Origin: Amphiura filiformis
Lineage: Eukaryota; Echinodermata; Ophiuroidea; Amphilepidida; Amphiuridae
Length of the DNA stretch: 64,000 bases
Direction: 5' to 3'
Assembly (NCBI RefSeq): GCF_039555335.1
Contig: NC_092628.1
Location: forward strand, 37,408,965 to 37,472,964
Made by a program: the position numbers and the translations under genes
Notes under the pieces: model-generated
Told to the model about the DNA's origin: nothing
Databases searched by the model: none
The model's input: the letters and a program-made list of their open reading frames with translations, nothing else
In this document: positions 5,403 to 28,213 of the stretch, in pieces
Numbering within the stretch: the first letter of the stretch is position 1
Layout of the letters: every line of letters starts with the position of its first letter

Positions 5403-8400
5403 GTAAGGTTTTTGGCCTGTCCCTGTTTTCAGCATCAAAGATACTTGCGATGACCATTTTTTTGCAGACACTTTGATAACAGGTAACTTTTATAGGTCAT
5501 AGGGTAGAAACTATAGTTGTACAATTTGTACGAAATATACATTTTGTTATAGGCCTAAAATGTTTACAAAAATATATTGGTCCGTAGGCCTACATTGTGC
5601 TTTAATTCAGTTGTTCGACGTATAGATCGGCGATAGCATGGCAAGGTCCAGTTGTACTAGTAACTACAAATTTCGTACGTTGTAGAAGGTGCCATAGGGT
5701 GTCTTCAGTGTTAATTGTTTTCATTATAAATGTCGCAAAATATTAATATTGGCAATAATTACCAACCTGTTTGACCTCTCCATATATATATATATATTCA
5801 TGCATTGCTCACCTGTGTTTTCATATCAAATTTTGTGGTGAAAAATGATTTATGTGTAATTTGCAATCATTTTTGGAGCAACGATATCTTTGTACCGACG
5901 CCACGGCTAAGTGTGTATGTGAATGCACATTAAACACACACAAACACATACACAGTACCTGTTGGAACTCCCGGTCGGAGCCGGGAGTTTCAATTATTGA
6001 ACTGGGCAAGGTCCCATACAATGATACATATACCTGTATGAGAGGCAAACGTTGGTTAACACATTTGCTAGTCAGCCAAATTTGCCTAGACCGGGGCCCA
6101 AACACAATACATAATTATTACAAGAAATTTAAAAGAACAGAATAGCAATTCCACATAGAAAAGCTGCTATCAGAAAAAGAAAAAATGGGATTATCTTATA
6201 CATGTATAGAATAAGACGCTCTTTATGGCAACAGTTATTCCTACTTTACCCAAGGTTATAAGATAAGCCAAAGCTTATCGACATCCTTTTGAATAAGTTG
6301 ACAAACTTGCATGTACATGTACATCAGATGGTTACCTAATAGGGGCAGCATAATAATTTAGAGATAATGGAATTCAGTACTTTGATGGAAAAACAGTTTA
6401 TGTCCAAACTTCTTGGAGAAGACTGTCAGACTAATTAATGTCATTTTACAATTTTTACAATTTGAAAACTGTTGGAAACTTGGTATTGCAATTCACAAAA
6501 TGGAATTTGCCTTTAAGGTGGTACTACACACCTTGCAATTCACAAAACGGAATTTGCCTTTAAGGTGGTACTACACCCCTTGATAAATTTGTGACTATTT
6601 TTGTATTTTCTCAAAAATTAACTACACACTGGACACTGGTAACGAAAGTTATGTATATTATAGGGGCAAGGAATCCAATTACTTCACTGAAATTTCGGTG
6701 ATTCCAATTGAGTGAATCCAATTACTTCACTGAAATTTCAGTGATTCAAGACTTGTAAGTGGTACATTCTGGTGGTACCTCTTTTCTTATCATAAATAAC
6801 ATACCGGTTGTTTTTAGTCACTGAAATTCCAGTGTAGTAACTGGATTCCTTGCCCCTATAATATACACAACTTTTGTTGCCAGTGTGTTATTATTTTTGA
6901 GAAAAATGCAAAAATAGTCACAAATTTATCAAGGGGTATAGTACCACCGTAACTGAAAATGTTGGTTTCCTGTTATACGTGTATATCTGAAAATTCAATT
7001 TCTTCTAACCTTACAGGGGGCAAATGCATCGGCCCTGGAGAAGGAGATTGGAGCTGACCAGTTCCCTCCCAATGAACACTACTTTGGGCTTGTCAATGTA
7101 AGTACATCAATGCCATTGTCCATGATGAACCAGGTGTGAAGTTGCAATTTTCAATTTTTAGATTTTGAATTAGTTCTAATGAATACATAAACTAAGCTTT
7201 TTAAAAATGATGTATCACATGTGATTTTGCTTGGTAAATAGTCCAATCAAATAATCAATAATCACCTTGAAATTCCTGTGTCTCCTATTGAATTTTGTTG
7301 AGTTTATTAAGTCATATCTCTAAGGGGTTGTGCAATAATTATGTGTACCCCCTGGGTGGTGAATTCTCAAAGTGGTCTGCCAAAATCGCTTGCCCCCCCA
7401 TGGCAGTGCCAAAAAATCTTTGCCCCCCCCTTTACACAATAAAATTTGGGAGAGCCACAATTTAAAACCTTAAATTGTCTTTTCACATAATGCACGCGTA
7501 GCGAGCAGGAAATTTTGCATATTTGAATGTGTTCCTAATGTTTTTCTACACCTTTTTAGGACGTAATATAGAAACGGTGCCCAAAATATTTGTGCCCAAA
7601 ATTGCTTGCCCCCCTTTCGACCTGCCAAAATTGCTTGACTCCCCCCTTTTAACCTGGCAAAAAATGCTTGCCCCCCTTTTGGTCTGCCAAAAAATCTTTG
7701 CCCCCTATAATTCACCACCCCAGGGGTACACATAATTATTGCACCACCCCTAAATAGGTTCTTGTAACTTTACATGTATGGTTCGTGGTTGACCTTTGGT
7801 TGGATTTGAGGTGCATACATGTATGCTTGCTTCAGAATGTTATTTTTGAATATTAAATGAAAGTTCATACTTGTACTACTAGCTGCCACCCACGGGCATC
7901 TGCAGATATGTGATGATGTTAACCTTTCGTGCATTCACACACTCCACGCAAGAAGCATATATTAGAAAGGCTAGCATCGGGCGACGCACACCGTCGACGT
8001 CCTATACGATAAATATAAATTTGATACTCCGTTGGTGAGCGACGGGCGAGTGGTAGTGAGCGACAGGCGAGTGGTATTTCACTGAACGCAAGAAAAGGAG
8101 TTCTATCTGATATCGATCGCTTAGGTCGCTCAGTAGTCAACTACAAACTCATGCATTCAATTCGATTGAAATCGATTATTCTATTATTGACGAAGATAAA
8201 GAGCGTGATAGTGTGTCAATAATGTACATTGTATTGCACCTGGCTTTACCAGCATTCCTTTATAAAATAATTTTCTCAAAGAGTTGAATATTATCAAAAT
8301 TTTTACCCAGGATTTCAAATTTTTACCCGCAAATTGCAGTTAAACATATCCACAGCAAAATACCGGTCCTCACTAATTAGTACATTTAATTTCCAGTTAG

Positions 8401-11400
8401 TACATTTAAACGAAACCTGTGATTTACGTGACAACAAATAAAATTTTCTTACAATAGAAATATCATTATGGAAGGCCGCAACCGCCACAACGTGGAGCTG
8501 CTACGCGTAGCTGACTTTTTGTTCCGTGGAGCCAAATTGACCAATCATGTTAGAGTTTTTCATTACTCGGAGGTAAAACTGACCAATCAAGTACGACTTA
8601 CTCATTACGTGAAGCGAATTTAGTCATTAAGAATTTGCCAGACGAGCTTCACGTAGTTGCAAGATATCCTCGGTCACGATAGTTATGATTCAAAAAGTAA
8701 TTTATGAAAAGTACGAACCGACTTATTATTAAGATGGACATGCACTCACAAGAAACTCATACAGTATTGTACACAACTATATAGCTAGGCAGAGTGGTGG
8801 TAAACCATGCACACAATTCAGGCTGATTTGTACATCTTGCGCAGCGTGGCCTGCGGAATTCGACCTTCAGCAAACCAGTTCGGATTTACTTTATATACTA
8901 GTAGTAGGCCATACATACTGTAGTTACGGTACTGCCCGTTTTCCTATACACAATACTCAGTGCGCTCACCATTGACGCGTGACCTAGTGTATGTTAGAAG
9001 TATTATGCCATTGCCTATATGACGTCACTGTGTAAAAAATAACCAGTCAATATTTAAAGTATTCTCTGAAATTCTAGAAAATATAGTTTTGTAACATTTC
9101 CTAAATTTTTAGCTAATTTAGGTGTTTGGAAATATTGGTACTTTTGTGTTTTAGGAAGGATATGTAAACGACAGATAACACCAAAAAATATGAACAAATT
9201 ATTTCTAAACCGTGTTAAGTCTGCAAACCATTATGCTTCTCATTTTCAAGAACGCTGGTTAACAATAAGCAGACTATTGTCTCATTTCGTAAACAAAAGC
9301 CCAGACAGTATTGTTACCTTATGTTATTTATAATCATTCACCCAACTGAAACTATAATACCAGCTCATTGTTCATTGCACAGGTAAAACAGACACAAGTG
9401 CAGTGTGTATTTAACCAGAGAAGATCTGATGTAACATAGTTGAGCTGTTTTCATTGAGTGTTATCTTGGTTTAATAGCTTTTAATGGGGTTTAAGTCCTT
9501 CAAAGGTCGTGGTGAATTCTACTGTAGACATGACTGCATCATGATTATTTTAAAGTCAACAACATTCAACAATATGATCACCGTGATAGTATGACAGTAT
9601 CAGTACCGTGGGTGTCAGTGATCCTGGCCTGACACAGTAGACAAACAAACAAACACGCCACACACATGGCACTTGCATGCAAGGTAACATTGACTATACA
9701 CTAATCAAACAATGGTATTGATCCTGTACAACTGTTTGTGGTTTATTTACATTCGATTCATTTAAAATCCACATAGTAAACATTAATTTTGGCAAGAGTT
9801 TTCTCTCTGGAACGATGATGCATCAACTGGCTCCGCGTAATGAAAAGATCTAACATGATTGGTCAATTTAGCTCCGCGAAGCGAAAAGTAAGCTACGCGT
9901 AGCAGCTCCACGTTAATGGCGGTTACGACCAGCCATATACTGATCATGCGAAAATCGTAAAACATAGAATAGAAACAGTGTGGCGGCTCTCAAAATCTCA
10001 AATTGTATGCATAGCCTGAGTCGCATACGGCCTATCTCAAACAAAATAGCTCAAAATCACCATGCGTAGTTGTTGAAAAACGTGAGGATTTATCGTACTA
10101 CCACGGCAATTTTTAACACGAAGATATAGGGATGTCGACGGTGTGCGACGTTGGTACAGATTCAAGTATGAATACAACATCATTCAAGTGTATAATATAT
10201 GAAAGAATGAACAGTTTACCAACCCAAAGTGTTACTAAATAAACATGACAACAAATAAATACAAATCCCGACCGGCACACAGCCCAACTTGGAAAAAAAA
10301 AGTAAGGGAATGTATCAGCATGGGAATGAAACCCACGGCCTTCCGATCTCTAGACGGATGCCTATAGGCTACCAGCTCCCACTGATAAACGGTGGTTAAA
10401 ATTGGGTCTAATGTAAGCAGTCGAGGTATACAATACACAAAAACAAATATTACGCAAGTACACAAGTGAAGGAGATCATTACTGATGCTTAATCGTTTCC
10501 CCAGTATAATATAAGTAAAGTAGGTAAACTAATGGGGATACGCATCCTTCACAAGAACAAATAAACACAATGGGGAACGATTGCTCGCTAGAAGAGGAAA
10601 CTGAATATATTAAATAAGAAAGAATGAACAGTTTACCAACCCATAGTGTTACAATTAAACATGACAACAAAAAATACAAATCCCGACCAGCACACAACCC
10701 AACTTGAAAAAAAATAGGCGGTTCTCGAACCACGCGTTCCCCCTGGCTGGGCGATCAGTAAACTTGTACCTCAGATGACCCCTGAAGCCTTTAAAGCCTG
10801 AAGCCGCAACGAATAATCGAATATCCATGACATCATATTAAGCTTTAAAACTTTCTTTGAAAAAGAAAAGGTGGAGGGAAATCCCATTTTTTACAAAATG
10901 TTATGTAATCTAATACACTTATTCATTATTCATTATACGCCTCTTGTAAACTACAAGGCGTATCGTATCCAATCCGATCTGGTCCAATATCTACCGATCT
11001 GGATCGGATCGGTTCATCACTAATTTGGATCCCTTCCCTGTTGACCATTTAGCTTTATTTGAAGTCATTACATATCTAATATTTAATGTGACTATAAACT
11101 TACATGTACAATTTTGTTCTCTTGTCAGTTTGGCAACACATGTTATTGCAACTCAGTGTTGCAGGCCCTGTACTTTTGCAAACCATTCCGTGACAAAGTA
11201 CTGGCCTACAAAGCCCAACCCAAGAAGAAGGAAACACTACTCACATGTCTAGCTGACTTGTTCAATAGTGTGGCAACGCAGAAGAAGAAAGTCGGAGTGA
11301 TAGCGCCAAAGAAGTTCATTGCAAAACTTCGCAAGGAGAACGGTAAATTGATTTTGGTTTGTTTTTGCAAGACTTGGTTTAGTGTTATATTTATTTAGTT

Positions 11401-14400
11401 AATCAGGGATAAGTTAATTATGATTTAGATCAGTTTAAGGGATCTAAAATGAGCATTTATTGCGTTTCGACAGTATTTTTGTGGGACATGAGAGCACCTC
11501 AGACCTATCGAATTGCATTTTGAATACTGAAGCCTGTCTTTCTGATATCAAATAATTTTCATTTTTTGAAAATCACAATATAATACAAATTTTATGACAA
11601 ATTATACAAATTTGATATTTTTCAATTTTTTGATATATAACAGTCCTCGAAGTAAATTATATAAATCTAATGACATATTCTTAAAGTGTATGTAGCAGGG
11701 AGGAAAAGCCGACGGTCAATTGCAAATTTTGACCTTTCATATTGAAGATATGGATTTTTTTCCCAAAAAGACCTAATTTTTTTTTTGGTGTTTTGGGAAA
11801 AAATCCATATCTTCAATAATTGAAAGGTCAAAATTTTCAATTGATCGTCGGCTTTTCATCCCACCTACATACACTTTAAGTATAAATCATCAGATTTATA
11901 AAGTTTACTTCAAGTACTGTTAAATATCAAAAATATCAATTTTTAATGATTTGTCATAAAATGTGTATTAAATTGCGAATTTCACAAAAATCAAAATTAT
12001 TTGATATCAGAATGACATTCTTCGTATTCAGAATGCATTTCGATATGTCTGATGTGCTCTAATGTCCCACAATAAATACTGTCCAAACGTTCATACCCCA
12101 TCCCTTAATGTAATTGTAGTTTAGTTGTGTGATGAAGATACAGTAGGGCATGAAATATACCATATCCTACACGTACATGTATGATATTTAAACAAAGAAG
12201 TCAGTCATTTTGATAAAGCTCCACCAACTGTCGTCTTGGGGGTAGAATTTTATTTCCTTGCGAGGATCTATTTTAATTCTGGTAACAACATTTTAAGAGA
12301 ATCGTTAGATTCTTTCCCCCATTAAGTGTACTAGTATGGGCTCAAGAAATAGAATCTCTTTAGATTTACACAAATCAGTTGAGGAGAATCTCTCTGAGAA
12401 TGAATTCTCATGAGCACCCTTCTTGATTCCACCTGAAACAATTATACTTTGATCAGCTTGTTATGCTTGTAATCAGTGGGGCCTTATAACATCAGCGGAT
12501 TAATATCAATATATTTTGAGAATTGTTTTGTGACATCTCCCCAGAACATCACATATTATTAATGCAAGCCCAATATGTGGCCTTTCTTTCTTTAACAAAC
12601 ACAACACCAGACAGGTCAACTATAACACTCTTAACTTGGGTCTACTTTTCGGCCTGTAGTGGTAAAAGCCTAACAATTCCCGCCGATTACGAGCTGATCA
12701 AACTATATGTGTCTTTTCTCTTTGCTTCTTTTGTATTACTTTTATCTTTTTCTTTTGTAGAGGTGTTCGATAACTACATGCAACAGGATGCCCATGAGTT
12801 CCTCATATACTTATTAAATACCATTGCAGATTTATTACAAGGTAATTAATGGTCAATACTTCATAATGGTTTTTCCATTTTTTTCTTGTTACCGTATTCA
12901 TTCCAATAAGCGCCTGGGCGCTTAACAAAGTCTTGGGTGGGCGCTTATTTTTTCCCTCGTTTACCTAATTTTTTCGTAAGGGGCATTTATTAGAGACAAA
13001 TTTACGTGTGTTATAAATGGGTTCTGAGACGTTCTAATAGCTTTTCTGACGCAGGAAATGTCTTGCAAGTTTACGCAGGACTTGTAGTCCTGCAGCTATT
13101 TCACTGTATCGACATCTATCTGTCACTTCAACATTAATGGTACCCTTTAGCAAATTGAAAATACCCTGGGTGGGCGCTTATTGGGGCATGGGCGCTTATT
13201 GGAGCGAATACGTGTACATCACTCAGGTTTCTACTAGAAACCAAAATATGTTGAACTGGAATATTTATGAGAAATTCACATGAAACATGTATCAACTGTT
13301 TGTAAAGAAAATGGCACAAAGTATATATGAAAAATTGCCAAGATGTGTTCTTGTGGAAAACAAAGAAGAAAATAAAATTGAAATGTTTGCACCCATAATG
13401 CATATTTTGACCTGTAGCACATCTTATCCAGTCCTTTCAAGTCATGTATAATGTATTTTCATCTTTGTATATTCACTTGAGCAGCAGAAAGACATGCAGA
13501 GAAGCAAGCAGCCAAAGCCAAAGTTGGTACACCAAATGGTTCGCTGATGAATGATAACAATAATAAACCTGAACCCACCTGGATCCATGAAATATTCCAA
13601 GGCACACTCACAAATGAAACAAGGTGTCTGTGTTGTGAAGCGGTGAGTACACTCACAAATGAAACAAAGTGTCTGTGTTGTGAAGGGGGTGAGTACACTC
13701 ACAAATGAAACAAGGTGTCTGTGTTGTGAAGGGTGAGTACACTCACAAATGAAACAAGGTGTCTGTGTTGTGAAGGGTGAGTACACTCACAAATGAAACA
13801 AGGTGTCTGTGTTGTGATGAGGTGAGTACACTCACAAATGAAACAAGGTGTCTGTGTTGTGAAGGGTGAGTACACTCACAAATGAAACAAGGTGTCTGTG
13901 TTGTGATGGGGTGAGTACACTCACAAATGAAACAAGGTGTCTGTGTTGTGAAGGGTGAGTACACTCACAAATGAAACAAGGTGTCTGTGTTGTGAAGGGG
14001 TGAGTACACTCACAAATGAAACAAGGTGTCTGTGTTGTGATGGGGTGAGTACACTCACAAATGAAACAAGGTGTCTGTGTTGTGAAGGGTGAGTACACTC
14101 ACAAATGAAACAAGGTGTCTGTGTTGTGAAGGGGTGAGTACACTCACAAATGAAACAAGGCGTATGTGTTGTGAAGGGTGAGTACACTCACAAATGAAAC
14201 AAGGTGTCTGTTGTGAAGCATGAGTACACTCAAAAATGAAACAAAGCGTATGTGTTGTGAAGGATGAGTACACTAACAAATGAAACAGCGTATGTGTTGT
14301 GAAGGGTGAGTACACTCACAAATGAAACAAAGTGTCTGTGTTGTGAAGGGGTGAGTACACTCACAAATTAAACAAGGTGTCTGTGTTGTGAAGGGGTGAG

Positions 14401-17400
14401 TACAACCACAAATGAAACAAAGCATATGTGTTGTGAAGGATGAGTACACTCAAAAATGAAACAAGGCGTATGTGTTGTGAAGGGTGAGTACACTCAAAAA
14501 TGAAACAAGGTGTCTGTGTTGTGAAGGGGTGAGTACAATCACAAATGAAACAGCGTATGTGTTGTGAAGGGTGAGTACACTCACAAATGAAACAAGGTGT
14601 CTGTGTTGTGATGGGGTGAGTACACTCACAAATGAAACAAGGTGTCTGTGTTGTGATGGGGTGAGTACACTCACAAATGAAACAAGGTGTCGGTGTTGTG
14701 AAGGGTGAGTACATTCACAAATGAAACAAGGTGTCTAAGTTGTGAAGGGGTGAGTACACTCACAAATTAAACAAAGCGTATGTGTTGTGAAGGGGTGAGT
14801 ACACTCACAAATGAAACAAGGTGTCTGTTGTGAAGGATGAGTACACTCACAAATGAAACAGCGTATGTGTTGTGAAGGGTGAGTACACTCACAAATGAAA
14901 CAAGGTGTCTGTGTTGTGAAGGATGAGTACACTCACAAATGAAACAGCGTATGTGTTGTGAAGGGGTGAGTACACTCACAAATGAAACAAGGTGTCTGTG
15001 TTGTGAAGGGGTGAGTACACTCACAAATGAAACAAGGTGTCTGTGTTGTGATGGGGTGAGTACACTCACAAATGAAACAAGGTGTCTGTGTTGTGATGGG
15101 GTGAGTACATTCACAAATGAAACAAGGTGTCTGTGTTGTGAAGGGGTGAGTACACCCACAAATGAAACAAGGTGTCTGTGTTGTGAAGGGTGAGTACACT
15201 CACAAATGAAACAAAGCGTATGTGTTGTGACGGGGTGAGTACACTCACAAATGAAACAAGGTGTCTGTTGTGATGGGGTGAGTACATTCACAAATGAAAC
15301 AAGGTGTCTGTGTTGTGAAGGGGTGAGTACACTCACAAATGAAACAAGGTGTCTGTGTTGTGAAGGGTGAGTACACTCACAAATGAAACAAAGCGTATGT
15401 GTTGTGAAGGGGTGAGTACACTCACAAATGAGTAAGGGGTGAGTACACTCACAAATGGACAAGGCATATTTTATTATGTAAAATGATATTACTATTTCTC
15501 TCTTCAGGTGAGCAGTAAAGATGAAGACTTCCTTGATCTTTCTGTAGACGTAGAACAGAACACATCTATTACACATTGTTTAAGGTATGTTGAATATGTT
15601 CTAAATTTCTGTGCAACAATATGATTGTCTACATGAGAGCACTTGTAAAAATGTAGTGTACAGTTTAACAATTGTTTTGTGAATATTATGTTCTGTTGTG
15701 GAAACACACAGAATCATCCATCATAAGTGAGTTACTGGTCCTTTGCTTTGATCTTGATTCTGTTAAGGGATCTAAAATGAGCGTTTATTGCGTTTCGACA
15801 GTATTTTTTGTGGGACATGAGAGCACCTCAGACCTATCGATTGCATTCTGAATACGAAGCATGTCTTTCTGATATCAAATAATTTTCATTTTTTGAAAAT
15901 CACAATATAATACAAATTTTATGACAAATTATAAAAATTTGATATTTTTCAAATTTTTGATATATAACAGTCCTCGGTAAATTATATAAATCTAATGACA
16001 TATTCTGAAAGTGTATGTAGCAGGGAGGAAAAGCCGACGGTCAATTGAAAATTTTGACCTTTCATATTGAAGATATGGATTTTTTCCCAAAAAAGACCTA
16101 ATTTTTTTTTGTGTTTTGGGGAAAAAATCCATATCTTCAATACGAAAGGTCAAAATTTTCAATTGATCGTCGGCTTTTCATCCCACCTACATACACTTTA
16201 AGTATAAATCATCAGATTTATTAGGTTTACTTCAAGTACTGTTAAATATCAAAAATATCAATTTTTAATGATTTGCCATAAAATGTGTATTAAATTGCGA
16301 ATTTCAAAAATCAAAATTATTTGATATCAGAATGACATTCTTCAGATTCAGAATGCAATTCGATATGTCTGATGTGCTCTAATGTCCCACAATAAATACT
16401 GTCCAAACGCTCATACCCCAGCCCTTAAGGTGTTGTGAAAGCACACAGAATCATCTGTCACAGGTAGGCTACTGACCCTGATCTTGATTTAGAAATATGG
16501 ATTTAAAAGATGTTACTGATGGGAGCTTTAATGACCAGATATCACATAGTACCAATGTTATAATACTTTAGATAGTTGTTTGAGTGAATAGATTTATGTC
16601 CGCGTTCTTGCTGAAAGTGTTGGTATTGTATGATATATATATAAAGTGTTTTTTATAACTGGATTTCAATAATATGTGACGCTAACATACATGTTTGAAA
16701 GTATTGGGTGGAGTATTAGACACCATCAATACACTCCATATATTTTCTAGCCGCTTCAAAGATTGATTGCTATAATAGTGTATGAAATAATATCAGTAAC
16801 TTCCTGCTTACTCATGAAATGCAAGAAAGTATCTATGGACTTGTGTCGTCCGACACAAGTCCAATCCATAGATATTTTCCTATATTTTTGGAGAATATCC
16901 AAGGATAACAATAATTGTATCCTTTAGTGAACTGGAATTTATATCTTTTGACTTCTTGGTCAACTTTGGTGAAGGATTTAAGTTTGATAATCATACTAAA
17001 AAGTCCAATGTTTCCGTTGCTTTTGATAACAGTGCAGCCATTGTGCAGGTGAAATACTTGTGCTTCTAAGAATACCATAACATATGTGACCTGCTGTGAC
17101 GAAACCCGCCATAAGTCGCACTCAGTCATATCGAGATACAGCGAGTCAAAGTTGGGAAAGGGGTGAAAAACCTTGCGAATTTTGTTTTTCAGTTTTTATT
17201 ATTTTTTGATTCCTTAATATGTTTATTTTAACCTACCATTGAAAATAAAATATTCTTTTATGTCTAAAGCACCCAAATCTAGCATTTTCTGAGCCAAACC
17301 AAGTCCTTTAAGATGTCATTTTACAACTTTAAAGCCATTTTTCTTGCATTTGTCTTTTCTTTTTGTGTCGCTTCCCCCCTTCCCATTGAAAGACCGTAGA

Positions 17401-20400
17401 ATAAGGACCACATGTCCCAGAAACATAATTTTGGTATTAAATGAAAGCTGAAGACCTATGCTAAATGATGACATCAAAAACTCAATTTTTCAAAATTAGT
17501 GACTTATGTCAGGATTTGTGGGAACAGGTCACATATAATACATGCGTGTGAAGAATAAGCAGGTAATGCAGATTTTTATCCAAGTGGTGTTTGACCAATG
17601 AGATTGCAAAATAATATAACATCAATTTAGGTTTTAGCTTGTAGAGATGGTGATAGGTTCACTGCTGAGATAAAAATTAAGATATATTTCTATACATGGT
17701 ATTGGTAAATGATGAAACATATTTGTAATCCATTTTGCTCCATCTATCTCTACAGAGGTTTTAGTAACACAGAGACATTGTGTCATGAATACAAGTACTA
17801 TTGTGAAAACTGCTGCAGTAAACAAGAGGCACAGAAAAGGTGAGTAGAAATAAGAAATAAAGAAGAGATACAATCATTTGTCAGCAAATTTTTGACATAT
17901 TTGTTCATAATACTATTACATTGTGTTTAATATTATGTACTACTGACATGTTGAAATAAATCAGCAAACTTTCCTGCATGTTGCTTTTGCATCACACATG
18001 TAGACATTTTATGGTTTGAGGGACTTGACGTGGCCAAGATCTTGATTCCCCAATTGATACTCCCAACCCAACTGCAGCCAAATTGGATATAAAATGACAT
18101 ATAAACTAATTTGAGTGTTTGTGAGTCCACAAATTGGAGAATCAAATGCTCACCTACCCTGCTTTGCACAAACCTAATTTTTGTACATAATAATAAAAGT
18201 ATTCTAATGCTAACATGATCACACATATCTTAGCTAGCCACCTGTCCACCCGTCATTTTGGATGAGCAGTTGACAGATGCTTGTTTGTTTGTTTGTTTTA
18301 TTTCTTCTTTAACCTGGGACACTCAATCAGTTGAAAATACAATTAATCATCTGTTCTTCCTTGAGGCCCAGGGATCAATACAACTTTTACATAATTACTC
18401 AAAAAGGTTTTTAAAATACTACATACATTCAAATACACAATATTAAAATTAAAATAATTAAAATTTAATTACAATGCTTACAAATATTTCAAATTATAAT
18501 GTAACTTTACATCAACATGTATAAAAAATACCATTAATATTACATAGACCTAATGTATTATACTTATACATCAATAAAAAAAAACATTATAAGATAAAAC
18601 AACCTATATACCAGCATAGCTAATAATTAATACCGGAACCAAACAATTTGATTGCACCAAATATCAAACTAAAAATTAATTTAATGTCAAAAATAAATAA
18701 ATTCAATATCAAAACTGATTGCTCAAAAAGTGTGATAAAGCATGATAGCACAGAAAAAATAATCTTGTTTTACAAAAAATAAATTTAAAAAGTCAAAACA
18801 TGAAACCAATTAAAGACTTACAATTTATGAATTATAAAATTATTGAGAGATGTATATTGTTTTGAAAGTTGCTGTGCTAATCGGGAGAGGCAATTTCAGT
18901 TTAGGATCTTAGCCCCTCTGAATAAGAATGAGCGTCTACCAGCTTCAGTTCTGGGTTTGAAATTTAATGCAATATTGCCATGGGCACTACCATGGTTAAG
19001 GTTTTAAAAATGTGCGTCCGTAATGACGCAAGTTTGCTGACGAGGTTGCAAAAACTTGCGTCCAGACAGATTTTGTGCGCCCATCTGAAATTCACGATTA
19101 TGACGATACACACGCATTCTCGGGTCTACACCTCATCAAATGTTGATTGTTAAAAAAAAATAAAAGTGCATTTTCGCCGTGATATTCCATCTCCATTCGC
19201 TATGATAATTTTTCTCATTTCTGTGTCAGTTTTGGTCCGAAACGTGGTCAAAAACAGGTGCAAAAACATGAGCAAAGTCTGTCAATCTTGAGCAATTTTA
19301 GTTCGTACTTTCACTTCCGCGTTTCTATTTTTAAATTAACGTGTTGTTGATGCTACAAAAACTAAAACACGTGCTGCCACAAATAATACGAAAAAGGGTT
19401 ATCATTTGGATTTTGTCTTTAAAATTGCTTTTATTCCTCGTAACAATAATACTAATAAAGGAAACCTAGATTATTTATGAGAAAATAAGCTTAAAATATT
19501 AAAAATTGAATATTGTCAGGTTGTGATAAATAATTAAATAAACACCGCACGTTAGCGGCACGTGCTTGATTGTAAACAAATCAATCGGGACTTCCCCAGG
19601 CCATGTGATCAAACAGCTGTACAGCGATCGTTCGGAAAGCATGCAAAAAGTGCACGATTTCCTGACGTTGCATTAACAAATATTGCAGAATTTACTTCAA
19701 TTCTCAGCAGGTGGGTCAAAATTTTGGGGCTTTTATTATCTTAAAAATATAAAAGAATAAAATTTCTTATTTTTATCATCAATTAATGATAAAATTACGA
19801 AGTTTTGTCTGCGTTCACATCGAAGTGACATGGACACAAAATACTTGATTAGCCATGTGAATTTGCGTCCAAATTTGTAAAATACACGTCTGGACGCAAT
19901 GACGCACACTAACAGGAAGCCTGCTACCACGTGTATTGTGACGATGACTGGTTTGCACAGAACAGAAGTAAAAATTGTTTGCATATACTTATAACAAAAA
20001 ATACATTTATAAGTTAAAAGACATAGTCTTGTCTAAGGTTGCTGAGAGGCTTCCATTTAAGTTTTTCCCTGATTAAAGAAGACTATGTCCTGACTGGAAC
20101 TTAAAGCAAAATGTATTTGAAGCTATCAGTTGGCTGTTGAAGCCTTGTTTAAAATGTTTGCAATGTCCAATTTGGATAAACAATGTGCTATTCCAATTGA
20201 AATCCATACACCCCTATGGAAGACATGACATTAATCTCAAATGGGTTAACATGAACGAGTAACCATTTGAAGTCTATACCTGCTGTGTGGGAGATTAAGG
20301 TTATGTTTTCCATCGGGGTGTATGGATATCAATTGGAATAGCCAATGGGATTCAAATAATGTGCAATTTCTAAGACACAGAATCAAACAGCCAGTAAATG

Positions 20401-23400
20401 AGCACATTGATTTTTTCAAATAAAATTTGGAACCGTAAGAAACCCTGAATAGCCCCGAACAGAAGCCCAGTTATTTAGCACATCAATCATCTACAGCAGG
20501 GTTCTCAATAGGCAGACCTGCAGGTCAGATCCGGCCCGCCGACAAATTGTGGTTGGTCCTTGAACAACTCTGAAATGTACAGTAAACAGAGGAAAATAAG
20601 GTGTATTGGCCATCAAACACATATCCATCTTTGAAATAATTTTGGCCCATGAGCAAATATATTGAGAACCATAGTGGTCAGTGCCGCCGACAAGGGGGTC
20701 TAAAATAAAGAAAACATACCTTAATGGCCCCATAAAAGCAAAGCAAAGAGACCACGGTGGGCCCTAACGTTCATTTTACTCCCGGGCCCGTAATGCTTCC
20801 TGGCGGAATTATGAATAAATGATATAGATCAGGTATATCATTATTCATAATTCCAGAAAAGTAAGCACAAATTGTGTATACCTGTTATTTTAATGTCAAA
20901 AAGAAAGTTCAGCAAACTATAACAAATATAGCAGGTATATCTCAAAATAACAAGTTGACTGTTAACATGTAATTTGGTTTCAGACACAGAATATGTCAAT
21001 ATTTTCCATCAAGTGGTTCCCATGGACACTGGTTAAATAACACAAATAATGTTTATTGTATTGTAATGATCCATTGACCCACATAGGTTAAAGTCCTAAA
21101 ATGAATGGTTCCTTACCAATAGGCTTACGCCTACTTAATTTTGAACAATGAAAATGTACAATGGTAGTTTTATGGTTACTGTGGAATTTTGGTGGCAATC
21201 CAACAGGTCCCATGTGAGGTGGCAATTACTATTTTGTTTATGGTGGGTTTTTTTATTATTTAAAAGCTACAGAATTTAAAAAACACCAGAATATCCATTA
21301 TTTTGGTAGCATCCATTTTGTTTTATGTTTTTTTTAAATATTTTAAAAAAGCTACAGAATTTAAAAAACACCATCATAGATAAAGTGTTGGTCTTTTCTT
21401 ATAGATGGTCAAATTGGGGGGAAAAGCCAACTACTGCAAACATGGCAAATGTTAAAACTAAAATCAGTTTTATAAACACAAAATCTGACATGTACAATGT
21501 ATCATAATGGTTGGACAAAAAAGTATTGCACACACACAGGAAAGAAGAACCACGCATCGCACCCTGGCATAATTTAACATGAAATTACAATGGAAGCATA
21601 ACGTGCATAGGGAGGTAAACAAGAGAAAAAACTGGTTATCTCCCTATGCATGTTATGTTTCCATTGTAATTTCATGTTAAATTGTGACCCGCTCTGACGA
21701 AACCCGCCATAAGTCGCACTCAGCCATTTTGAGATATGGCAAGTCAAAGTTGGGAAAGGGGTGAAAAACCGTGCAGATTTCGCTTTTCAGTTTTTATTAT
21801 TTTTGATTCATTAAGGGGTACTACACCCCTCGATAAATTTGTGTCTATTTTTGCATTTTTCTCAAAAACTAATAACACACTGGTAACAAAAGTTATGTAT
21901 ATTATACGGGCAAGGAATTCAATTACTACACTGGAATTTCAGTGACCCAAGACAAGCGGTTCGTTATTTATAATAAGAAATAAGGTACCGCTACGATGTA
22001 CCTCATTTTCTATCATATATACTGAACCGCCTGTCTTGAGTCACTGAAATTTCAGTGTAGTAATTGGATTCCTTGCCCCATATTATATACATAACTTTTG
22101 TTACCAGTGTCTTATTATTTTAGGAGAAAAATTGAAAAATAATCACAAATTTACCACAGGGGTGTAGTACCCCCTTAATATGTTTACTTTAACCTACCCT
22201 TGAAAACAAAATATTCTTTTATGTTCAAAGCACCCAAATCTAGAATTTTTTGAGCCAAACCAAGTCCTTAACATGTCAATTTACAACATTGAAGCCATTT
22301 TTCTTGCATTTGCCTTTTTTTTAGGTGTTGCTTCCCCCCTTCTCGTTGAAAAACCGTAGAATGAGGACCACATGTCCCAGAAACATAATTTTGGTATCAA
22401 ATGAAAGCTGGAGACCTATACTAAATGATGACATCAAAAACTCAATTTTCAAATTTAGTGACTTATGTCTGGTTTTGTGGGGTTGGTCACAATTGTGCTA
22501 GGGTGTGATGCATGGTTCTTCTTTCTCCTGTGTATTGATATATTAAGAAATACTTTTAAGCATCATTAATTTGATCTTGTGTGCAAGTTGGGAATGTTTG
22601 TATGTTCCAGGGTATGATGTGTAAGCCTCTTCCCTTGTTTGTATGCAGACACTTTGATTTTTTATCACCTTTCTCTGTTGCAGAATGCAAGTCAAGAAAC
22701 TGCCTCAAATATTAGCATTACATCTCAAACGGTTCAAATACATGGAGCAGTTACATCGGTATACCAAATTATCTTACAGAGTTGTGTTTCCATTAGAGTT
22801 AAGACTTATGAATACGGTAAGTTGACTTAATGGGCTATTCCTCTTGAAATCCGTACACCCCCTATTTAAGACTTGACCTTAATATTCCACACAGGGAGTG
22901 TGCATTTCAAATGGGTGTGTTCCATAGAGTGTGTATTGTTTTCAAATGGAATAGCCCAATATGGAATGGGATCAAGCAAAGTGAACTGTTTATCACTAAA
23001 ATCATGTTTATGCTCCAGTTTTTTTTTATATCGTTTTTAGCAATTCAAACAAATCATATCTCAAGGTATCCAGAAACCAAAATTCAATTCTTTAGAGTAA
23101 ATTGTCACTATATTGTTGTCTGTTGATTGGCAAGAATGTGAAATAGGGGACTTGATTTTGAAAACTACTCATTGTGTTTGATTGCTTTACATATCGTACG
23201 TAGCCTGTGCTGAGATTTGGATAAGTCTATTGCATAAGGTCAAAATAGAAAAGATTGTTTGCTTGTCGTCCACCGAACAATCCTAATCTGGAAAAAAGTG
23301 GGTTTTTTTGTTTTACTGTACAAATGAATACCGACCCTAATTTTGGAAATTCCAGAAGAAGTTTATTTCTTTTTTTCAACATTTTTAACATCCTGAAAAG

Positions 23401-26400
23401 ATTTTTTTACAGTTTTTCCTCACTTCTAAACTGTTTTAAAAACATTAATGAAGTGGTAAACAGTAGAGAAATATCCCAATTCACCTATTTGGGCTATTTA
23501 TTAAGCTAATAAAAGGCACACAACCATGTTTTGGCTATGACCTTTAAAAAGCATTAAAAAAAATCTTGACTGACCGACCCAATTCTGGAAAACTTGTGGA
23601 GGACAAGCAAACTATTTTTTTGGGGGGGTCTAAGCCCTGCAGACAGGTGCATTAGACAAACATCAACCTTTAGCATGAGTCAACTGTCTAATTCCTGGAG
23701 CTACAAGTAGTATGCCTTTTTATCCCCCTGGCTTTAGCCATGGAGGGGGATATTGCGATAGTGTATTCCTTCTGTATGTATGTGGGTGTGTAGGGGGGTA
23801 TGTGTATGTGTGTTCCATTTTGGTTAGGTTTTGCCTTCCGCCTATTTTCTCGGAGACTAGGGATCGCACAATTCTCAAACTTGGTGGGTGGGTGCATCTT
23901 GACCCGAGACAGAACTGGTTTGTATTGGTTAGTGGGTCAAGGTCACTGAGGTCATCCAGGGGTCATCTGAGGTCAATAGTAAATACTGTCGTATGGGCAT
24001 GAAACTTGGTGGGTACAGTCAACATTTAAAGCCAAATTTTTTGAAGGTCATTTCGAGGTCACCAGGGGTCATCTGAGCTCAAATTAGTAAAAACTGTTGG
24101 ATGGGCATGAAACTTGGTGGGTACAGTCTACATTTAGAGCCAAATTTTTGGAATATCATTTCGGGGTCACCAGGGGTCATCTGAGGTACAAGTTTACTGA
24201 CCGCCCAGCCAGGGGGGTCGCGTGGTTCGAGAACCGCCTATTTTTTAACCTAATAATACATTACAAAGGAAAAAAATGTTGGAAATTACATGTATAAGAT
24301 ACATGTATAATGCATCCACCTCTCTAATGAAACAATCCAAGACAACTTGCACATATTGGAGGGAAAAAATCTCATACTTTTACCTAAAGTTATAGTGGCT
24401 GTGTGAAATTTAATATCTACGTCATTGACTTAACTGTACTGTACCCATGAAGATAGCATAAATTTAAATTAATTTATTTTATTTCCAGCTGTGTTTGAAA
24501 GTAGTACCACTTTATTTGTCAGTATTTTTGATCATATTTTCTTTGGCAGTCTGATGATGCAACATGTCCTGATAAACTCTATGATTTGGTGTCTGTAGTT
24601 ATTCATTGTGGAAGGTAAGAACAGGCTGGCGACAGCTCGTTATAAAAGTAATTCAAGTATGGAAGCCGCCATTACCCTGCCATCGCGTAGAGCCTGGAAC
24701 ACTACCGCGATTTCTACCGCTATATCGCGTCCGTGCTCTGCGTTCAAGTCATGAAAAATCGCGGCTTGCTGCATCCACGGTTAGACTTTTTCAAGTCTGC
24801 TACAGTGCATTTTTTTCAAATGTTGAACAGGTTTTTGAATACTTTTAATTATATTTTTAGCGCATCCATGAACTTAATTTATCAAATGCATTAAATCAAC
24901 CAACAATCCCGCTATCCGGCCAAGATTTATACAAGAAAAATACTGTTTCAATCACGAAAATTAACCTAAATTTCGCGCATACACGTAAGACTTGGCGATA
25001 GTCTATTCAGATATTGTTGTCAAGCTCGAGGTGATTGACCCTAATGATTGACAGTTGGGAACGCGTACTGCTATGCGCGATGCTGAACGCGTAGTCGTGG
25101 TAGCCGGGTTCTAAAGTGGGTGCTAAAACCTCAAATGGCGACCTCCATGCGTGTACCGGGGGTGCTAAAGTGGAACCAAAACAACAGCGGGAATCGTGTG
25201 TTAAATCGACATAGAAAAGAACAGGAGGGATCAGCGAAATTTACTGTCAGCCCTCTGGTAAGAACATTTCATTTAGGGATTCAATCATGTTTCACCGTTG
25301 TTCATCACCGATGCGTCCACGTTGCCTGCGTGGTTTACTTCATGAGGGCAGCTTTAGCTGCCCGAGCCCTTTCAACAACGAAAACAAGCTAAATATCGTC
25401 TAATTCTCATGGTGCCTCCATTCGGAATATCCGTTTGTTATTGCCACTCAACCTTAATCTCGGTGGTTTCTATGTTGATAGCCTATCAGCAATAAAACAA
25501 AAGAATGAAATGGTAATGTTTAGCTGCTACTTAAATAACATTAAAAAAGTGATTACGCATAAGTTCCAGTCATGACAAATTTTACGCTACTCACGCCAGT
25601 AATGCATATCTTTATTGTATCCGTGCATTCGCATATACGCTACTGGAAAAGTGTGGATACATCACGGATTAACAACGCTTGGCTCCTGTACAAAGGAATA
25701 GGAAGAGTTGTTGAAAGGTGTATTTTACCTGTGCATAAATGAGTACATACATAGTTATTGATCAATCAATAAAATCTACCATTCAGTCAATCAATCAATC
25801 ATTCAGTCAATCAACCAATCATTCAGTCAGTCAATCAATCAACCAATCAATCATTCACAAATTTGCTCTTGTAATATTGTTATCAGTGACTGTTTACATG
25901 ATTGTAATGATATTATTATAACAGTAAATATTATGACATGTGTATTTTGCATTCATATTCATGTGAGTGTAAGGCATTCATTATATCTTTGTCAGTGCAA
26001 GGCGTTTATTATGTCTTTGTCAGTTCCAGGCTTTCATTGTGTCTTTGTGTTGGGGTTTTTGTGACGCACAGGTTTGAATATGTCATTTACTGTAAGTTAG
26101 AGATCATGCAATGTTACTCTGGAATCAAGAAACTGAATGTGTATTTGCCCATAGCCTGTCTAACATGCACTCAATGCCATTGATTAACATATTTCATGAG
26201 ACTAAGTTCTAATACAACACAATTATGCCTGTACAATTTCTTGCTGGTAGGTAAGGTGCAGCATCACAGCCATAAATTTGCTGTACCATATACCATATTT
26301 GGTGAAGCGGAAATGATTCTGATATATCTTAATGGCAGGGGAATAATTGTTGAAATGTGCTGGTACATAGGTGTAGCACATGTTAAATTGCAGACATTTA

Positions 26401-28213
26401 TTTGTCCTATTTAGTGCCTGTGCACTTAGTGAAATTTTTCATGGAAAACATTGTTGTAATTCTGATATATCCTGATGGCAGCATAATAACTTTTGAAGTG
26501 TGCTGGTACTTAGGTGTAGTGCATGTTAAATCGCCAACATTGTCCTATATATTTTGTGCCTGAGCACTTATTGAATATTTTTCATGGAAAATGTTGTAAT
26601 TTAGGATATTAGAAGTAGGAACAGTAGTATCCATACTTTGATCAGCTCATAATTGGGGGGAATTGTTAGGCTGTTACCACTACGCCGAAAAGTTGACCCA
26701 CGTTAATAGTGATATAGTTGACTTGTCGTGTCTCTATTGTGTGAGTTAAATAAAAGTAGATCGTATCAAAATAGAGATTTTAGCATCCGAAGAAAGCTGA
26801 TATTTTGCTCATAATTTCAGTGACAATTTTAGGCCTAAAATGTGTTCTGTTTAGATGTTATGAATGAAAAAGTGATAGCCTCATGGTGGTAAACCACACT
26901 GATCTATGTGCCATAGTGAAACATGTGTTTGCTTCTAATATCAAAACCACTAGTGCAATTTCGGAATCACAATATTTTGGTACCAACCTCAATGTGAGGT
27001 ACAAAATGCCTCAATCTGACCATCAACCTTTAACAGGTGTAAGAAAGTCAACATGTGCCCTTATAAAGGAAATAGTGTTATGATTAGGTTGAACAGTAAA
27101 CAAGTGATTACTCACTGAAAGTTCATTTTGTTTTGCATTTTTCAGTGGTCCAAACAGAGGTCATTATATCACAATAGTAAAAAGTCATGGTTTCTGGTTA
27201 CTATTTGATGATGACTTAGTAGAGGTAAGTAATATTATTTCTATTCCTAGAATTTATAGATTTCATATTTTCCCTATATTTTTGAACTCTTCCTATATTT
27301 TCCTATATTTTTACAAAATGTCATATAATTCCTCTATTTTTTCCGAATTTAGGAAATTACATGTTTTCTTTTCACTTGCACTAGTGAATTTAATACTCTG
27401 CATGCTAGCCATAGGCTTCAACATAAGAAGTCCCAAGTTTTGAGATATTTTCTCAAAATACCAAGAGCTATCTCAAGAACCACTGAACCAATACTAGGCT
27501 TGTTTGTACCTATTTTAATGCATTTTTCATGCTGATTCCAAATATGGTCATGAAAATTCACATTTCTGACATTTTTGACTTAAAAAAAAAAATTGAAACT
27601 TGTCGTGTGCAGTCGACACCCGCGTGAAGAGAGTTAATATGTAAAATTTAAAAAAATCATAGTGCAAAGTTGTCATAAATTATCAGCAGATCAGGCATTA
27701 CCAGCTTGTATTATTTGCCCAGTATATTCTTTAGCTACATCACACCAGTTAACCAGTCAAAATGATGCTCAAATTAAAGTACATCTTTGGGACTTTTCCC
27801 TCTTAACAAAAGTTACTGGTGTTTGATACCCACTGTATTTGACTTCCGCTGTTCCATATTTTCATTCAAAATGTTCCTATATTTTTGAAGCTCTGTATAG
27901 TGATCTCACTGTATATTTAGGTTGATAGGGTCAGATGCTCGTGGGCTTCTCAATCAAGACGTTGACTTTGCAATAGAGAATCTGAAAATAACAACTAAGC
28001 ATAATGCAATATGAGAAACTTGATAAGAAAGTTCAATGACCATTTCAATTGTTGATGTTTGAATTGTGATGTCTTTTTATCTCCCTCTCTCCTCTATTAT
28101 CTCAGAAAATTGATGTTTCCAACATAGAGGAATTCTATGGGTTAGCAACAGAAGTGCAGAAGACATCAGATTCAGGCTACATCCTCTTCTATCAAGCCAG
28201 GGACTTACCATAG
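5376..28213 (+). CDS. USP12/USP46: USP12/USP46-type ubiquitin carboxyl-terminal hydrolase, 11-exon gene
   Basis: Joined coding exons: 5376-5402, 7017-7097, 11129-11342, 12761-12841, 13488-13642, 15508-15584, 17756-17839, 22684-22816, 24550-24614, 27146-27224, 28106-28213; 1104 nt, 367 residues plus stop, close to the length of vertebrate USP46/USP12. All junctions are GT-AG and phases agree. The protein is a C19 cysteine protease: the Cys box [13 protein letters not shown] puts the catalytic Cys near residue 41, the His box [12 protein letters not shown] puts His near 312, and the Asp lies in WLLFDDD near 327-329. Zinc-finger pairs are RCLCCE (181/184) and YCENCC (228/231). In known relatives this enzyme removes ubiquitin in the cytosol and nucleus and is switched on by the WD40 proteins UAF1/WDR48 and WDR20 (family knowledge). 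Residues match USP12 at some sites and USP46 at others, as expected of a single pre-duplication orthologue. Introns are large and repeat-laden; intron 5 is almost wholly a minisatellite. Exon 1 is the only uncertain part. Confidence 0.93.
6513..6952. mobile_element. TTAA foldback MITE, family B, copy 1, with 47-bp duplication at its left edge
   Basis: TTAAGGTGGTACTACACCCC...GTACCACCGTAA. Arms include ATTTGTGACTATTTTTG and GTTATGTATATTATAGGGGC with complements. The left flank plus element start (about 6487-6533) is duplicated in tandem at about 6534-6580. Confidence 0.7.
7017..7097 (+). CDS. USP12/USP46: USP12/46 exon 2 (residues 10-36)
   Basis: Acceptor CTTACAG precedes GGGGCA and donor AAT|GTAAGT follows. 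The 27 codons include [12 protein letters not shown] and [12 protein letters not shown], the highly conserved lead into the Cys box. Phase 0 at both ends. Confidence 0.95.
7324..7750. mobile_element. GGGGTTGTGCAATAATTATG-ended MITE, family E
   Basis: Terminal inverted repeats GGGGTTGTGCAATAATTATG and complement; inside are many CTTGCCCCCC/CTGCCAAAA blocks. It lies in USP12/46 intron 2. Confidence 0.7.
7975..10155. repeat. Diverged 2.2-kb inverted-repeat structure in USP12/46 intron 2
   Basis: 7979-8006 (CGACGCACACCGTCGACGTC) is inverted at 10128-10148, and 8476-8560 (ACGTGGAGCTGCTACGCGTA, GACCAATCATGTTAGA) is inverted at 9850-9925. It may be an old transposon with degraded ends; the middle is not recognised. 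Confidence 0.45.
10202..10718. repeat. Pair of about 100-bp direct repeats
   Basis: GAAAGAATGAACAGTTTACC...CAACTTG(G)AAAAAAA occurs at 10202-10308 and again at 10619-10718 with few differences, probably two copies of one interspersed element in USP12/46 intron 2. Confidence 0.6.
10318..10395 (-). mobile_element. tRNA-derived SINE head
   Basis: On the - strand GAGCTGGTAGCCTATAGGC resembles a pol III A box and GGGTTTCATTCCC about 35 bases on resembles a B box. It sits between two direct repeats. Confidence 0.4.
10717..10800 (-). repeat. End fragment of the GGCATGAAACTTGGTGGG repeat family
   Basis: GGCGGTTCTCGAACCACGCG...GTACCTCAGATGACCCCT is the complement of the right end of the element at 23719-24245. 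Confidence 0.6.
11129..11342 (+). CDS. USP12/USP46: USP12/46 exon 3, catalytic Cys box (residues 37-107)
   Basis: Acceptor CTCTTGTCAG, donor AACG|GTAAAT. It encodes [16 protein letters not shown] with the nucleophilic Cys, then the LLTCLADLF and [14 protein letters not shown] blocks typical of this subfamily. It ends in phase 1, splitting a Glu codon with exon 4. Confidence 0.97.
11435..12108. mobile_element. TTAA-flanked foldback MITE, family A, copy 2
   Basis: 674 bp from TTAAGGGATC to ATCCCTTAA, intact TTAA on both sides, in USP12/46 intron 3. Same arms as copy 1. Confidence 0.75.
12447..12706. mobile_element. MITE family F, copy 1
   Basis: Ends TTTGATCAGCTTGT and GAGCTGATCAAACTATA; inside CTCTTAACTTGGGTCTACTT. 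It lies just before USP12/46 exon 4. Confidence 0.65.
12761..12841 (+). CDS. USP12/USP46: USP12/46 exon 4 (residues 108-134)
   Basis: A long pyrimidine tract and TTTTGTAG precede the exon; donor CAAG|GTAATT. It encodes [20 protein letters not shown], the USP QQDAHEF box. A MITE copy (12447-12706) ends only about 55 bases upstream of the acceptor. Confidence 0.97.
12891..13213. mobile_element. AAGCGCC-ended foldback MITE
   Basis: ACCGTATTCATTCCAATAAG...CGCTTATTGGAGCGAATACG inverted ends, with more GGGCGCTTATT inside; it occupies half of intron 4. A related piece lies at about 31795-31860. Confidence 0.6.
13488..13642 (+). CDS. USP12/USP46: USP12/46 exon 5, first zinc CxxC (residues 135-186)
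   Basis: Tandem acceptor GAGCAGCAG: using the second AG gives LLQE at the junction, the better match to the family, while the first AG at 13484 would add one codon in frame. The exon has a variable linker rich in Lys, Ala and Asn, then [20 protein letters not shown], where Cys181 and Cys184 form half of the structural zinc site. The donor GAAGCG|GTGAGT is phase 0. The final 36 or so bases plus donor are the seed of the array that fills intron 5. Confidence 0.96.
13597..15465 (+). repeat. Exon-donor minisatellite filling USP12/46 intron 5
   Basis: About 41 tandem units of 44-45 bp (a few of 42 or 46) follow the authentic exon 5 end. Each unit reads GTGAGTACACTCACAAATGA, then AACAAGGTGTCTGTGTTGTG, then AAGG(G): a copy of the final coding bases of exon 5 ([12 protein letters not shown]) preceded by a copy of the intron-5 donor. 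I count 42 GAGTAC cores including the native one; about 37 keep GTGAGT and about five have ATGAGT. Roughly ten units carry GCGTATGTG or a near variant in place of GTGTCTGTG. Only the last 42 or so bases of the intron, with the pyrimidine tract, lie outside. There are no unique spacers, so it is not CRISPR-like. Long open frames on both strands within it are by-products of the near 3n periodicity. Confidence 0.97.
15508..15584 (+). CDS. USP12/USP46: USP12/46 exon 6 (residues 187-211)
   Basis: Acceptor CTCTCTTCAG comes directly after the minisatellite intron; donor TTAAG|GTATGT. It encodes [20 protein letters not shown] then ITHCL, near-invariant in USP12/46. It ends in phase 2. Confidence 0.97.
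15763..16428. mobile_element. TTAA-flanked foldback MITE, family A, copy 3
   Basis: 666 bp, TTAA on both sides, in USP12/46 intron 6. Confidence 0.75.
16837..16862. repeat. Perfect 12-bp-stem hairpin
   Basis: GGACTTGTGTCG, two bases, CGACACAAGTCC, within a weaker ATCTATGG/CCATAGAT extension. In intron 6; no function seen. Confidence 0.5.
17086..17532. mobile_element. GTGACC...GGTCAC MITE, family C, copy 1
   Basis: 447 bp with ends GTGACCTGCTGTGACG and an imperfect complement; sub-terminal CATAAGTC/GACTTATG; flanks ATAT on both sides. It lies in USP12/46 intron 6. Confidence 0.65.
17756..17839 (+). CDS. USP12/USP46: USP12/46 exon 7, second zinc CxxC (residues 212-239)
   Basis: Acceptor CTCTACAG, donor AAAAG|GTGAGT. 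It encodes [20 protein letters not shown] then SKQEAQKR. Cys228 and Cys231 complete the zinc finger with Cys181/184 of exon 5. Confidence 0.97.
18226..18281. mobile_element. Fragment of the hAT-like MITE family
   Basis: TCTTAGCTAGCCACC...CCGTCATTTT...TGACAGATGC matches the left part of the 42623-42923 element with an internal deletion. Confidence 0.5.
18281..18995 (-). mobile_element. 3' end of a CR1/L2-like LINE
   Basis: On the - strand, 18995-18818 encodes [20 protein letters not shown] then GAKILN, one internal stop, and a Leu/Ser-rich tail ending at a stop (18820-18818). That is the RRSF..RGAK.WN pattern closing the RT ORF of CR1/L2/Jockey-type LINEs. About 500 bp of AT-rich 3' UTR follows, ending in a (CAAA)n-like tail at 18281-18296. 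It is 5'-truncated, in USP12/46 intron 7. Confidence 0.65.
20187..20343. mobile_element. GGCTATTCCA MITE, family D, copy 1
   Basis: 157-bp near-palindrome GCTATTCCAATTGAAATCCA...GGAATAGCC, with inner CACCCCTATGGAAGACATGA. Confidence 0.75.
21684..22490. mobile_element. GTGACC...GGTCAC MITE, family C, copy 2 (middle of the nest)
   Basis: Same sequence as copy 1, split by the family B element; flanked by AATT on both sides. Minus the insert it is about 443 bp. Confidence 0.75.
21811..22178. mobile_element. TTAA foldback MITE, family B, copy 2 (innermost of a three-level nest)
   Basis: TTAA at 21811-21814 and 22175-22178 with 360 bp between. It interrupts a family C element at a TTAA that is still empty in the other family C copy (17214-17217). 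Confidence 0.85.
22684..22816 (+). CDS. USP12/USP46: USP12/46 exon 8 (residues 240-284)
   Basis: Acceptor CTGTTGCAG, donor AATACG|GTAAGT. It encodes [20 protein letters not shown] then [30 protein letters not shown]-type MITE begins only about 15 bases into the following intron. Confidence 0.97.
22832..22958. mobile_element. Family D MITE, copy 2
   Basis: GGGCTATTCC...GGAATAGCCC, starting 15 bases past the exon 8 splice donor of USP12/46; the right half is shortened. Confidence 0.7.
23719..24245 (+). repeat. Interspersed repeat with about 110-bp internal units
   Basis: Starts TATCCCCCTGGCTTTAGCCA and ends GCCCAGCCAGGGGGG...GAACCGCC. Inside are tandem diverged units built on GGGCATGAAACTTGGTGGGT and CACCAGGGGTCATCTGAG. 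In USP12/46 intron 8; no conserved coding frame. Confidence 0.6.
24550..24614 (+). CDS. USP12/USP46: USP12/46 exon 9 (residues 285-305)
   Basis: Acceptor CTTTGGCAG, donor GGAAG|GTAAGA. It encodes [20 protein letters not shown] then G. The start is less conserved than neighbouring exons; [11 protein letters not shown] matches the family. Confidence 0.95.
25755..25862. repeat. (ATCA/GTCA)n microsatellite-like tract
   Basis: Repeated CAATCAATCATTCAGT in intron 9. Confidence 0.7.
26631..26755. mobile_element. MITE family F, partial copy, reverse
   Basis: ACTTTGATCAGCTCATAATT...GCCGAAAAGTTGACCCACGT is the complement of the right part of the other copies. In USP12/46 intron 9. Confidence 0.55.
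27146..27224 (+). CDS. USP12/USP46: USP12/46 exon 10, catalytic His and Asp boxes (residues 306-332)
   Basis: Acceptor GCATTTTTCAG, donor GTAGAG|GTAAGT. It encodes [20 protein letters not shown] then DDDLVE, carrying the catalytic His (about 312) and Asp (about 328). Confidence 0.97.
28106..28213 (+). CDS. USP12/USP46: USP12/46 exon 11, C-terminus and stop
   Basis: Acceptor TTATCTCAG. It encodes [20 protein letters not shown] then [15 protein letters not shown] and TAG at 28211-28213. The ILFYQ-R-D ending is the family signature; LP is a two-residue extension relative to vertebrates. Confidence 0.96.

Follow-up and report, generated by a model that had tools for sequence, protein, structure and literature searches.

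Intron 5 of USP12/46 in Amphiura filiformis consists almost entirely of tandem copies of its own exon end and 5′ splice site

We analysed a window of 64,000 nucleotides from the ophiuroid Amphiura filiformis (contig NC_092628.1 of assembly GCF_039555335.1, forward strand, positions 37,408,965 to 37,472,964; coordinates below are those of the window), where a USP12/46 gene harbors a minisatellite in its intron 5. Searches by tblastn with three orthologues, combined with splice signals, placed ten coding exons of this gene on the + strand from 7017 to 28210: 7017-7097, 11129-11342, 12761-12841, 13485-13642 (exon 5), 15508-15584 (exon 6), 17756-17839, 22684-22816 (exon 8), 24550-24614, 27146-27224 and 28106-28210, the last being followed by TAG. 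Once joined, they encode 359 residues, in which Pfam recognises a UCH domain (E 1.8e-65); the model is without a start codon, as no convincing exon was found earlier than 7017. A PDB chain of USP12 (5k1a) aligns to residues 2-179 of a 179-residue query built from exons 3-6. The coding exons measure 65-214 nt and the introns 643-4844 nt. Short exons between long introns suggest exon definition, and the dimensions of USP12/46 are those of such a layout.

The gene is identified as USP12/46 by its UCH domain and by orthology, judged from protein alignment. Among the best 120 of 2920 protein matches, from which the identities were taken, the highest identity is with P0122, a 363-residue protein from a 1710-nt contig (97%, and 98% in the alignment); Lytechinus and Patiria follow at 90% each (90 and 91% in the alignment), then the hemichordates at 87% (89%), Branchiostoma lanceolatum at 84% (85%) and Apostichopus at 78% in both, while the first of these matches by E-value is a quail protein (82%). 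In a tree of 15 proteins the window gene groups with P0122, Lytechinus and Patiria (83/94, drawn open), and the echinoderm rows, Apostichopus included, are split together with it from the other nine proteins, among them Branchiostoma, by a 98/95 branch.

Exon 5 (158 nt) ends in phase 0 with TGT GAA GCG according to the gene model and the protein alignment, and is followed by the native 5′ splice site GCG|GTGAGT at 13643-13648. Exon 6 starts with GTGAGC AGT (V S S). The exon limits fit the USP12/46 orthologues, so that the 1865 bp given for intron 5 (13643-15507) in the initial annotation are confirmed. The start of exon 6, CAG|GTGAGC (15498-15513), itself resembles a donor, and the spliced exon 5-6 junction would restore GCG|GTGAGC; a donor motif regenerated at a spliced junction is also what is found at recursive splice sites.

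The initial annotation had described the intron as about 41 copies of a unit made of the exon 5 end and the donor GTGAGT, with 37 of 42 cores intact and only the last 42 or so bases unique. Two procedures agree with this description. Tandem Repeats Finder returned a single array with a period of 45 and 41.3 copies, extending from 13604 to 15431 (score 2982, 91% matches), and cutting at the unit start motif gave 42 units that finish with (G/A)TGAGT. The first of these is the native one (13604-13648), which comprises the final 39 nt of exon 5 plus GTGAGT; a 43rd start enters the unique intron end. The array proper thus begins at 13604 and not at 13597, where it had been placed. Its 41 further units (13649-15444) measure 42-46 bp in all cases but one, a 27-bp remnant, and bring 36 intact GTGAGT decoys and five unit ends in which the motif reads ATGAGT (units 13, 14, 18, 27 and 29), a sixth ATGAGT lying within the truncated unit. 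The native donor is therefore indeed followed by dozens of near-identical ones. The last, decaying unit then passes into a unique end that carries the pyrimidine tract and the acceptor CTCTCTTCAG (15445-15507); likeness to the repeat fades near 15466, and from 15467 the similarity of the tail to the unit does not exceed that of shuffled sequences. As to the native exonic context that had been attributed to each decoy, the last 36-40 nt or so of exon 5 are repeated, but neither the whole exon nor its 3′ splice site is, and the first 36 nt of the native unit recur exactly in just 10 of 40 further units.

Such a concentration of donor motifs is not expected by chance. GTGAGT occurs 37 times in 13604-15507, the native site included, and 10 times on the + strand in the remainder of the window; 2000 draws from a first-order Markov model of that remainder gave on average 0.36 and never more than 4 occurrences per 1865 nt, and other 1865-nt stretches of the window, sampled in 50-nt steps, contain two at most. 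Neither is the repetition of boundaries a general habit of the gene: the exon 5 donor query had 42 matches, whereas each of the 19 other boundary queries (including the coding end of the last exon, which is no splice boundary) matched itself alone. Outside the array, the unit has just two 11-nt matches in the window.

Minisatellites are often mis-sized, and the array could be an assembly artefact or have a wrong copy number. This is very doubtful here, however, because the first 41 units, counting the native one, comprise 28 distinct sequences and the longest exact internal repeat has a length between 150 and 177 nt, with none of at least 178 nt, which argues against a block having been copied and pasted; moreover, the flanks of the array form a continuous gene. 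There is nonetheless a precedent for such trouble, in amphioxus, where one comparable boundary repeat appeared aberrantly assembled in a draft genome (PMC3087553).

The amphioxus cases also bear on the claim of the initial annotation that no gene organised in this way had been described, which does not survive them. PMC3087553 reports that exon-intron boundaries of amphioxus globin genes are duplicated in tandem, in the manner of minisatellites, and mentions earlier cases in Adh3, where they were termed ‘mirages’, and at other loci; a further case, PGBD5, comes from PMC3902484, where Adh and troponin C are also cited. The USP12/46 intron 5 array has the anatomy of a mirage. Its unit spans the boundary (39 nt of exon end plus GTGAGT), its unit length (42-46 bp in 41 of 42 units) lies within the range reported for Adh3 (10-72 bp; 150-160 bp in the globins), and its repeats contain splice signals, with 36 further intact GTGAGT. 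The host differs, the window gene being separated from Branchiostoma by the 98/95 branch, but in our view a mirage is not defined by the taxon of its host.

The comparison can be made case by case. The BflGb6 and BflGb9 globin mirages are likewise tandem boundary duplications in which many copies carry splice signals, and in BflGb9 it is the 3′ exon boundary that is duplicated, the side repeated in USP12/46 (PMC3087553). Their units are much longer, however (157 bp in BflGb9, against about 45 bp in USP12/46), and BflGb6 has 6 and 3 units in its two haplotypes, on the acceptor side, against 41 further copies here. The Adh3 mirages resemble the USP12/46 array in the size and boundary-spanning position of their units; their splicing was reported to be regular (Canestro et al. 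2002, as described in PMC3087553). Instability of length has been reported for amphioxus mirages, and somatic instability for those of Adh3. In the lancelet PGBD5, imperfect repeats of 60 bp and 108 bp overlap exons 3 and 4 and abut the splice sites, but they number 2 or 7 and 3 or 6 copies depending on the assembly, and the splice sites are mostly predicted (PMC3902484). USP12/46 differs from these cases in its host, theirs being cephalochordates, in the filling of nearly the whole intron, and in a copy number above those of the globin and PGBD5 cases. We found no published echinoderm mirage in the open-licence literature, in which echinoderms were only narrowly targeted, so that this absence is no proof.

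How could the native donor be selected among so many? Donor strength does not designate it. Evaluated with a matrix of human donors and by pairing with the 5′ end of U1, the native GCG|GTGAGT scored 10.42 bits (-10.8 kcal/mol with U1), while the 36 intact decoys scored 10.63 (22 sites), 10.80 (13 sites) or 11.87 bits (one site), with -11.5 to -12.2 kcal/mol; the six ATGAGT sites scored 0.13 or less. The native site is thus the lowest of the 37, by 0.2-1.5 bits. Local RNA structure does not designate it either: its predicted accessibility (0.012) ranks 27th of 37, with a decoy median of 0.015 and a range of 0.004 to 0.165 for the eight other donors of the gene. The array does not appear to bury the native donor, since shuffling the downstream sequence 100 times made this donor less open (median 0.002). 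A predicted hairpin, GUGAG-UACA-CUCAC (-4.3 kcal/mol alone), is possible at most unit junctions just as it is at the native donor.

The reading frame, in contrast, does distinguish the native donor. Among the 43 (G/A)TGAGT sites, it alone gives a product that is open and in frame over the 359 modelled residues, whereas the 36 intact decoys all lead to a premature stop, after 199 residues for 35 of them and after 196 for the other; retention of intron 5 likewise leads to a stop after 199 of the 359 residues. A working gene therefore needs the first donor. Exon length points in a similar direction, as the exon stays within 300 nt with only four of the 37 donors (the native one and three decoys), and 33 of the 36 intact decoys would require a longer one.

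Neither strength nor accessibility singles out the native donor, but order and exon length can, and we infer that these make it win. In the scenario that we consider probable, the array is a neutral passenger that grew by slippage in an old intron, and it is tolerated because position decides donor choice. A segment of 45 bp straddling the boundary of exon 5 and intron 5 would have been duplicated in tandem within an already old intron of USP12/46, and replication slippage or unequal exchange would then have expanded it until it replaced nearly the whole intron, without its acquiring a function of its own. A near-palindrome, GTGAGTACACTCAC, arises at the unit junction and might favor slippage. 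The native donor, transcribed first, would close a 158-nt exon with the 3′ splice site of that exon. The initial annotation had left the choice between the first of some 40 donors and a loose selection; it is less open than this, for when two consensus donors were set in tandem in designed 5′ splice-site libraries, splicing predominantly took the first (PMC6783452), unless their strengths differed. Furthermore, P0122 carries the same exon 5/6 junction (CCEA|VSSK), which fits with use of the native donor, yet is no proof of it.

Several points weigh against this scenario. In the same libraries, the stronger donor dominated where strengths differed, and the native donor scores lowest of the 37; these libraries also set two donors in a variable region of about 150 nt of a reporter, a competition of the same nature but far from 37 donors over 1.9 kb. 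Use of the native donor in Amphiura filiformis is a prediction from the sequence, and P0122 comes from another species, which may not have the array, its contig being presumed to be a transcript solely because it is short and devoid of introns. Finally, none of 41 units shows a change at donor positions +2 to +6, a constancy that a neutral array does not need, though longer non-donor stretches are invariant too.

The first of these points lends itself to another reading, in which the choice is leaky: decoys would be used appreciably, nonsense-mediated decay would remove the products, and the array would be a mild load. Indeed, all intact decoys outscore the native donor, the dominance of the stronger site in PMC6783452 goes the same way, and decoys 1-3 would yield exons of only 204, 248 and 292 nt. 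The score gaps are small, however, and the native donor is no intrinsically weak site, since it ranks fourth of the nine that were placed in the gene, with scores from 5.7 to 12.0 bits. Moreover, the Adh3 data and the authors' reverse transcription PCR suggest that amphioxus mirages leave regular splicing undisturbed (PMC3087553; also PMC3902484), and the maintenance of the array in a conserved gene would argue against a heavy cost. We therefore hold substantial leakiness to be unlikely, while still deserving consideration.

The invariance of the donor bases could instead suggest that the array is functional, providing U1-binding sites in cis that would protect against premature polyadenylation, promote retention or act as a rheostat of poison donors. 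The 37 intact donor motifs in 1.9 kb and the convergence of decoy use and retention on a stop after 196 or 199 residues would be in keeping with such a role. But the +1 base is lost in five of the 42 unit ends, and the non-donor alignment columns 9-12, 14-18 and 29-35 are as invariant as the donor, which is thus not clearly favored; in addition, no Rfam match reached the gathering score in 7000-28300. We see no clear sign, in the pattern of unit variation, of selection for or against the decoys, and give a functional array very little credence. A particular form of it, combining a rheostat tuned by repeat number with an array older than the split from the species of P0122, is a long shot as well. 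If it were true, almost all additional units would bring a donor of greater strength than the native one, leading to nearly the same truncated frame, array length would set the amount of surviving USP12/46 mRNA, and this length might differ from one individual or tissue to another, as has been reported of Adh3 in amphioxus.

Another function that could be imagined is the encoding of a repeated peptide, on either strand, since the 45-nt unit corresponds to 15 codons and there are stop-free stretches of 88 residues on the + strand and 270 on the - strand. We find this hardly credible. The units vary from 42 to 46 bp in length, their changes break the frame or alter residues, which indicates an array without coding constraint, and translation continued from exon 5 into the intron terminates at the 22nd intron codon. 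A search with the open plus-strand peptide returned one candidate and no match. For the minus frame, which was compared with Pfam but not submitted to a homologue search, the three scores all lie under the curated cut-offs, and such scores might be expected from the 45-nt periodicity.

That the intron preceded the array is suggested by breaks at the exon 5/6 junction (residue 178) in a comparison of 240 fetched proteins. Deletions begin exactly at this residue in two sturgeon proteins (P0051 and P0097), another ends exactly there in Mya (P0120), and P0095 has a 16-residue insert at the very same point; P0040 and P0080 break one residue away. With gaps or inserts bounded exactly at the position in four proteins, which is indirect evidence, the position of the intron seems to be ancient and the array of later date, and a new gain of the intron by tandem duplication is not supported. 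The potato RdRp gene is reportedly a case of intron gain by tandem genomic duplication (PMC4974935); there too a duplication within a gene bears on splicing, but it made a new intron, whereas that of USP12/46 appears to be old.

The last codon of exon 5 may help to date the array. It encodes Ala in the window (GCG) and in P0122, and among the 208 fetched proteins readable at this residue we counted 115 Thr, 82 Ala, 7 Ser and 4 Gly, the four Gly being those of Lytechinus, Patiria and two Apostichopus, that is, of all the fetched proteins of named echinoderms. GCG is found in none of 40 further units, while 22 of the 36 intact decoys read GGG|GTGAGT (Gly) and 13 AGG|GTGAGT. Should the animal belong among those echinoderms, it would be most parsimonious for the array to have arisen when the exon still carried GGG, prior to the divergence from the species of P0122. 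However, Ala is common outside echinoderms and present in Saccoglossus, so that the argument would no longer hold if the animal were basal, and the same pattern would equally result from a single change in the founding unit. The plus-strand peptide search, in which no match was obtained, is a weak test for the array in relatives, as short-read contigs may collapse arrays. Exactly where exons 8 and 9 join (22816, the end of exon 8 in the window), P0122 also has two additional residues (NT-VS-SDD); they could correspond to a GTNAGN donor included in the coding sequence, perhaps reflecting a 6-nt tandem donor in this relative.

The window contains other repeats. A fold-back family of about 620-675 bp is present in four copies (497-1151, 11435-12108, 15763-16428 and 28855-29478), 84-98% alike by piece in matching orientation and each 78-83% similar to its own reverse complement over most of its length; two of them lie within USP12/46 introns, after exons 3 and 6. 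A long terminal repeat (LTR) retrotransposon occupies 50614-58154, with direct repeats at 50614-51765 and 57008-58154 that are 96% identical and each contain a short 30-bp tandem array. Its coding part is scattered over several frames, with integrase domains (in 52949-55802) before the RNase H domain (in 56117-56713), an order known from Gmr1-like Ty3/gypsy elements. We also noticed a large palindrome of 926 bp (38190-39115, 88% match to its own reverse complement), and 3.4 copies of 174-bp units with nested A-rich simple repeats (33460-34033).

In conclusion, the precedent in amphioxus removes the claim that the organisation of intron 5 is without parallel, but the value of the locus as a natural experiment stands, as does its relevance to 5′ splice-site competition. 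Downstream of one real donor in a conserved gene lie 36 intact donors, each outscoring the native one, and the system has a built-in readout, as the use of any intact decoy leads to a stop after 196 or 199 residues. It could thus serve to gauge how far transcript order outweighs the strength and number of donors. Furthermore, it carries the mirage phenomenon from amphioxus to what looks like another phylum, and raises the question of whether boundary minisatellites are common in marine deuterostomes, where they might feed intron growth.

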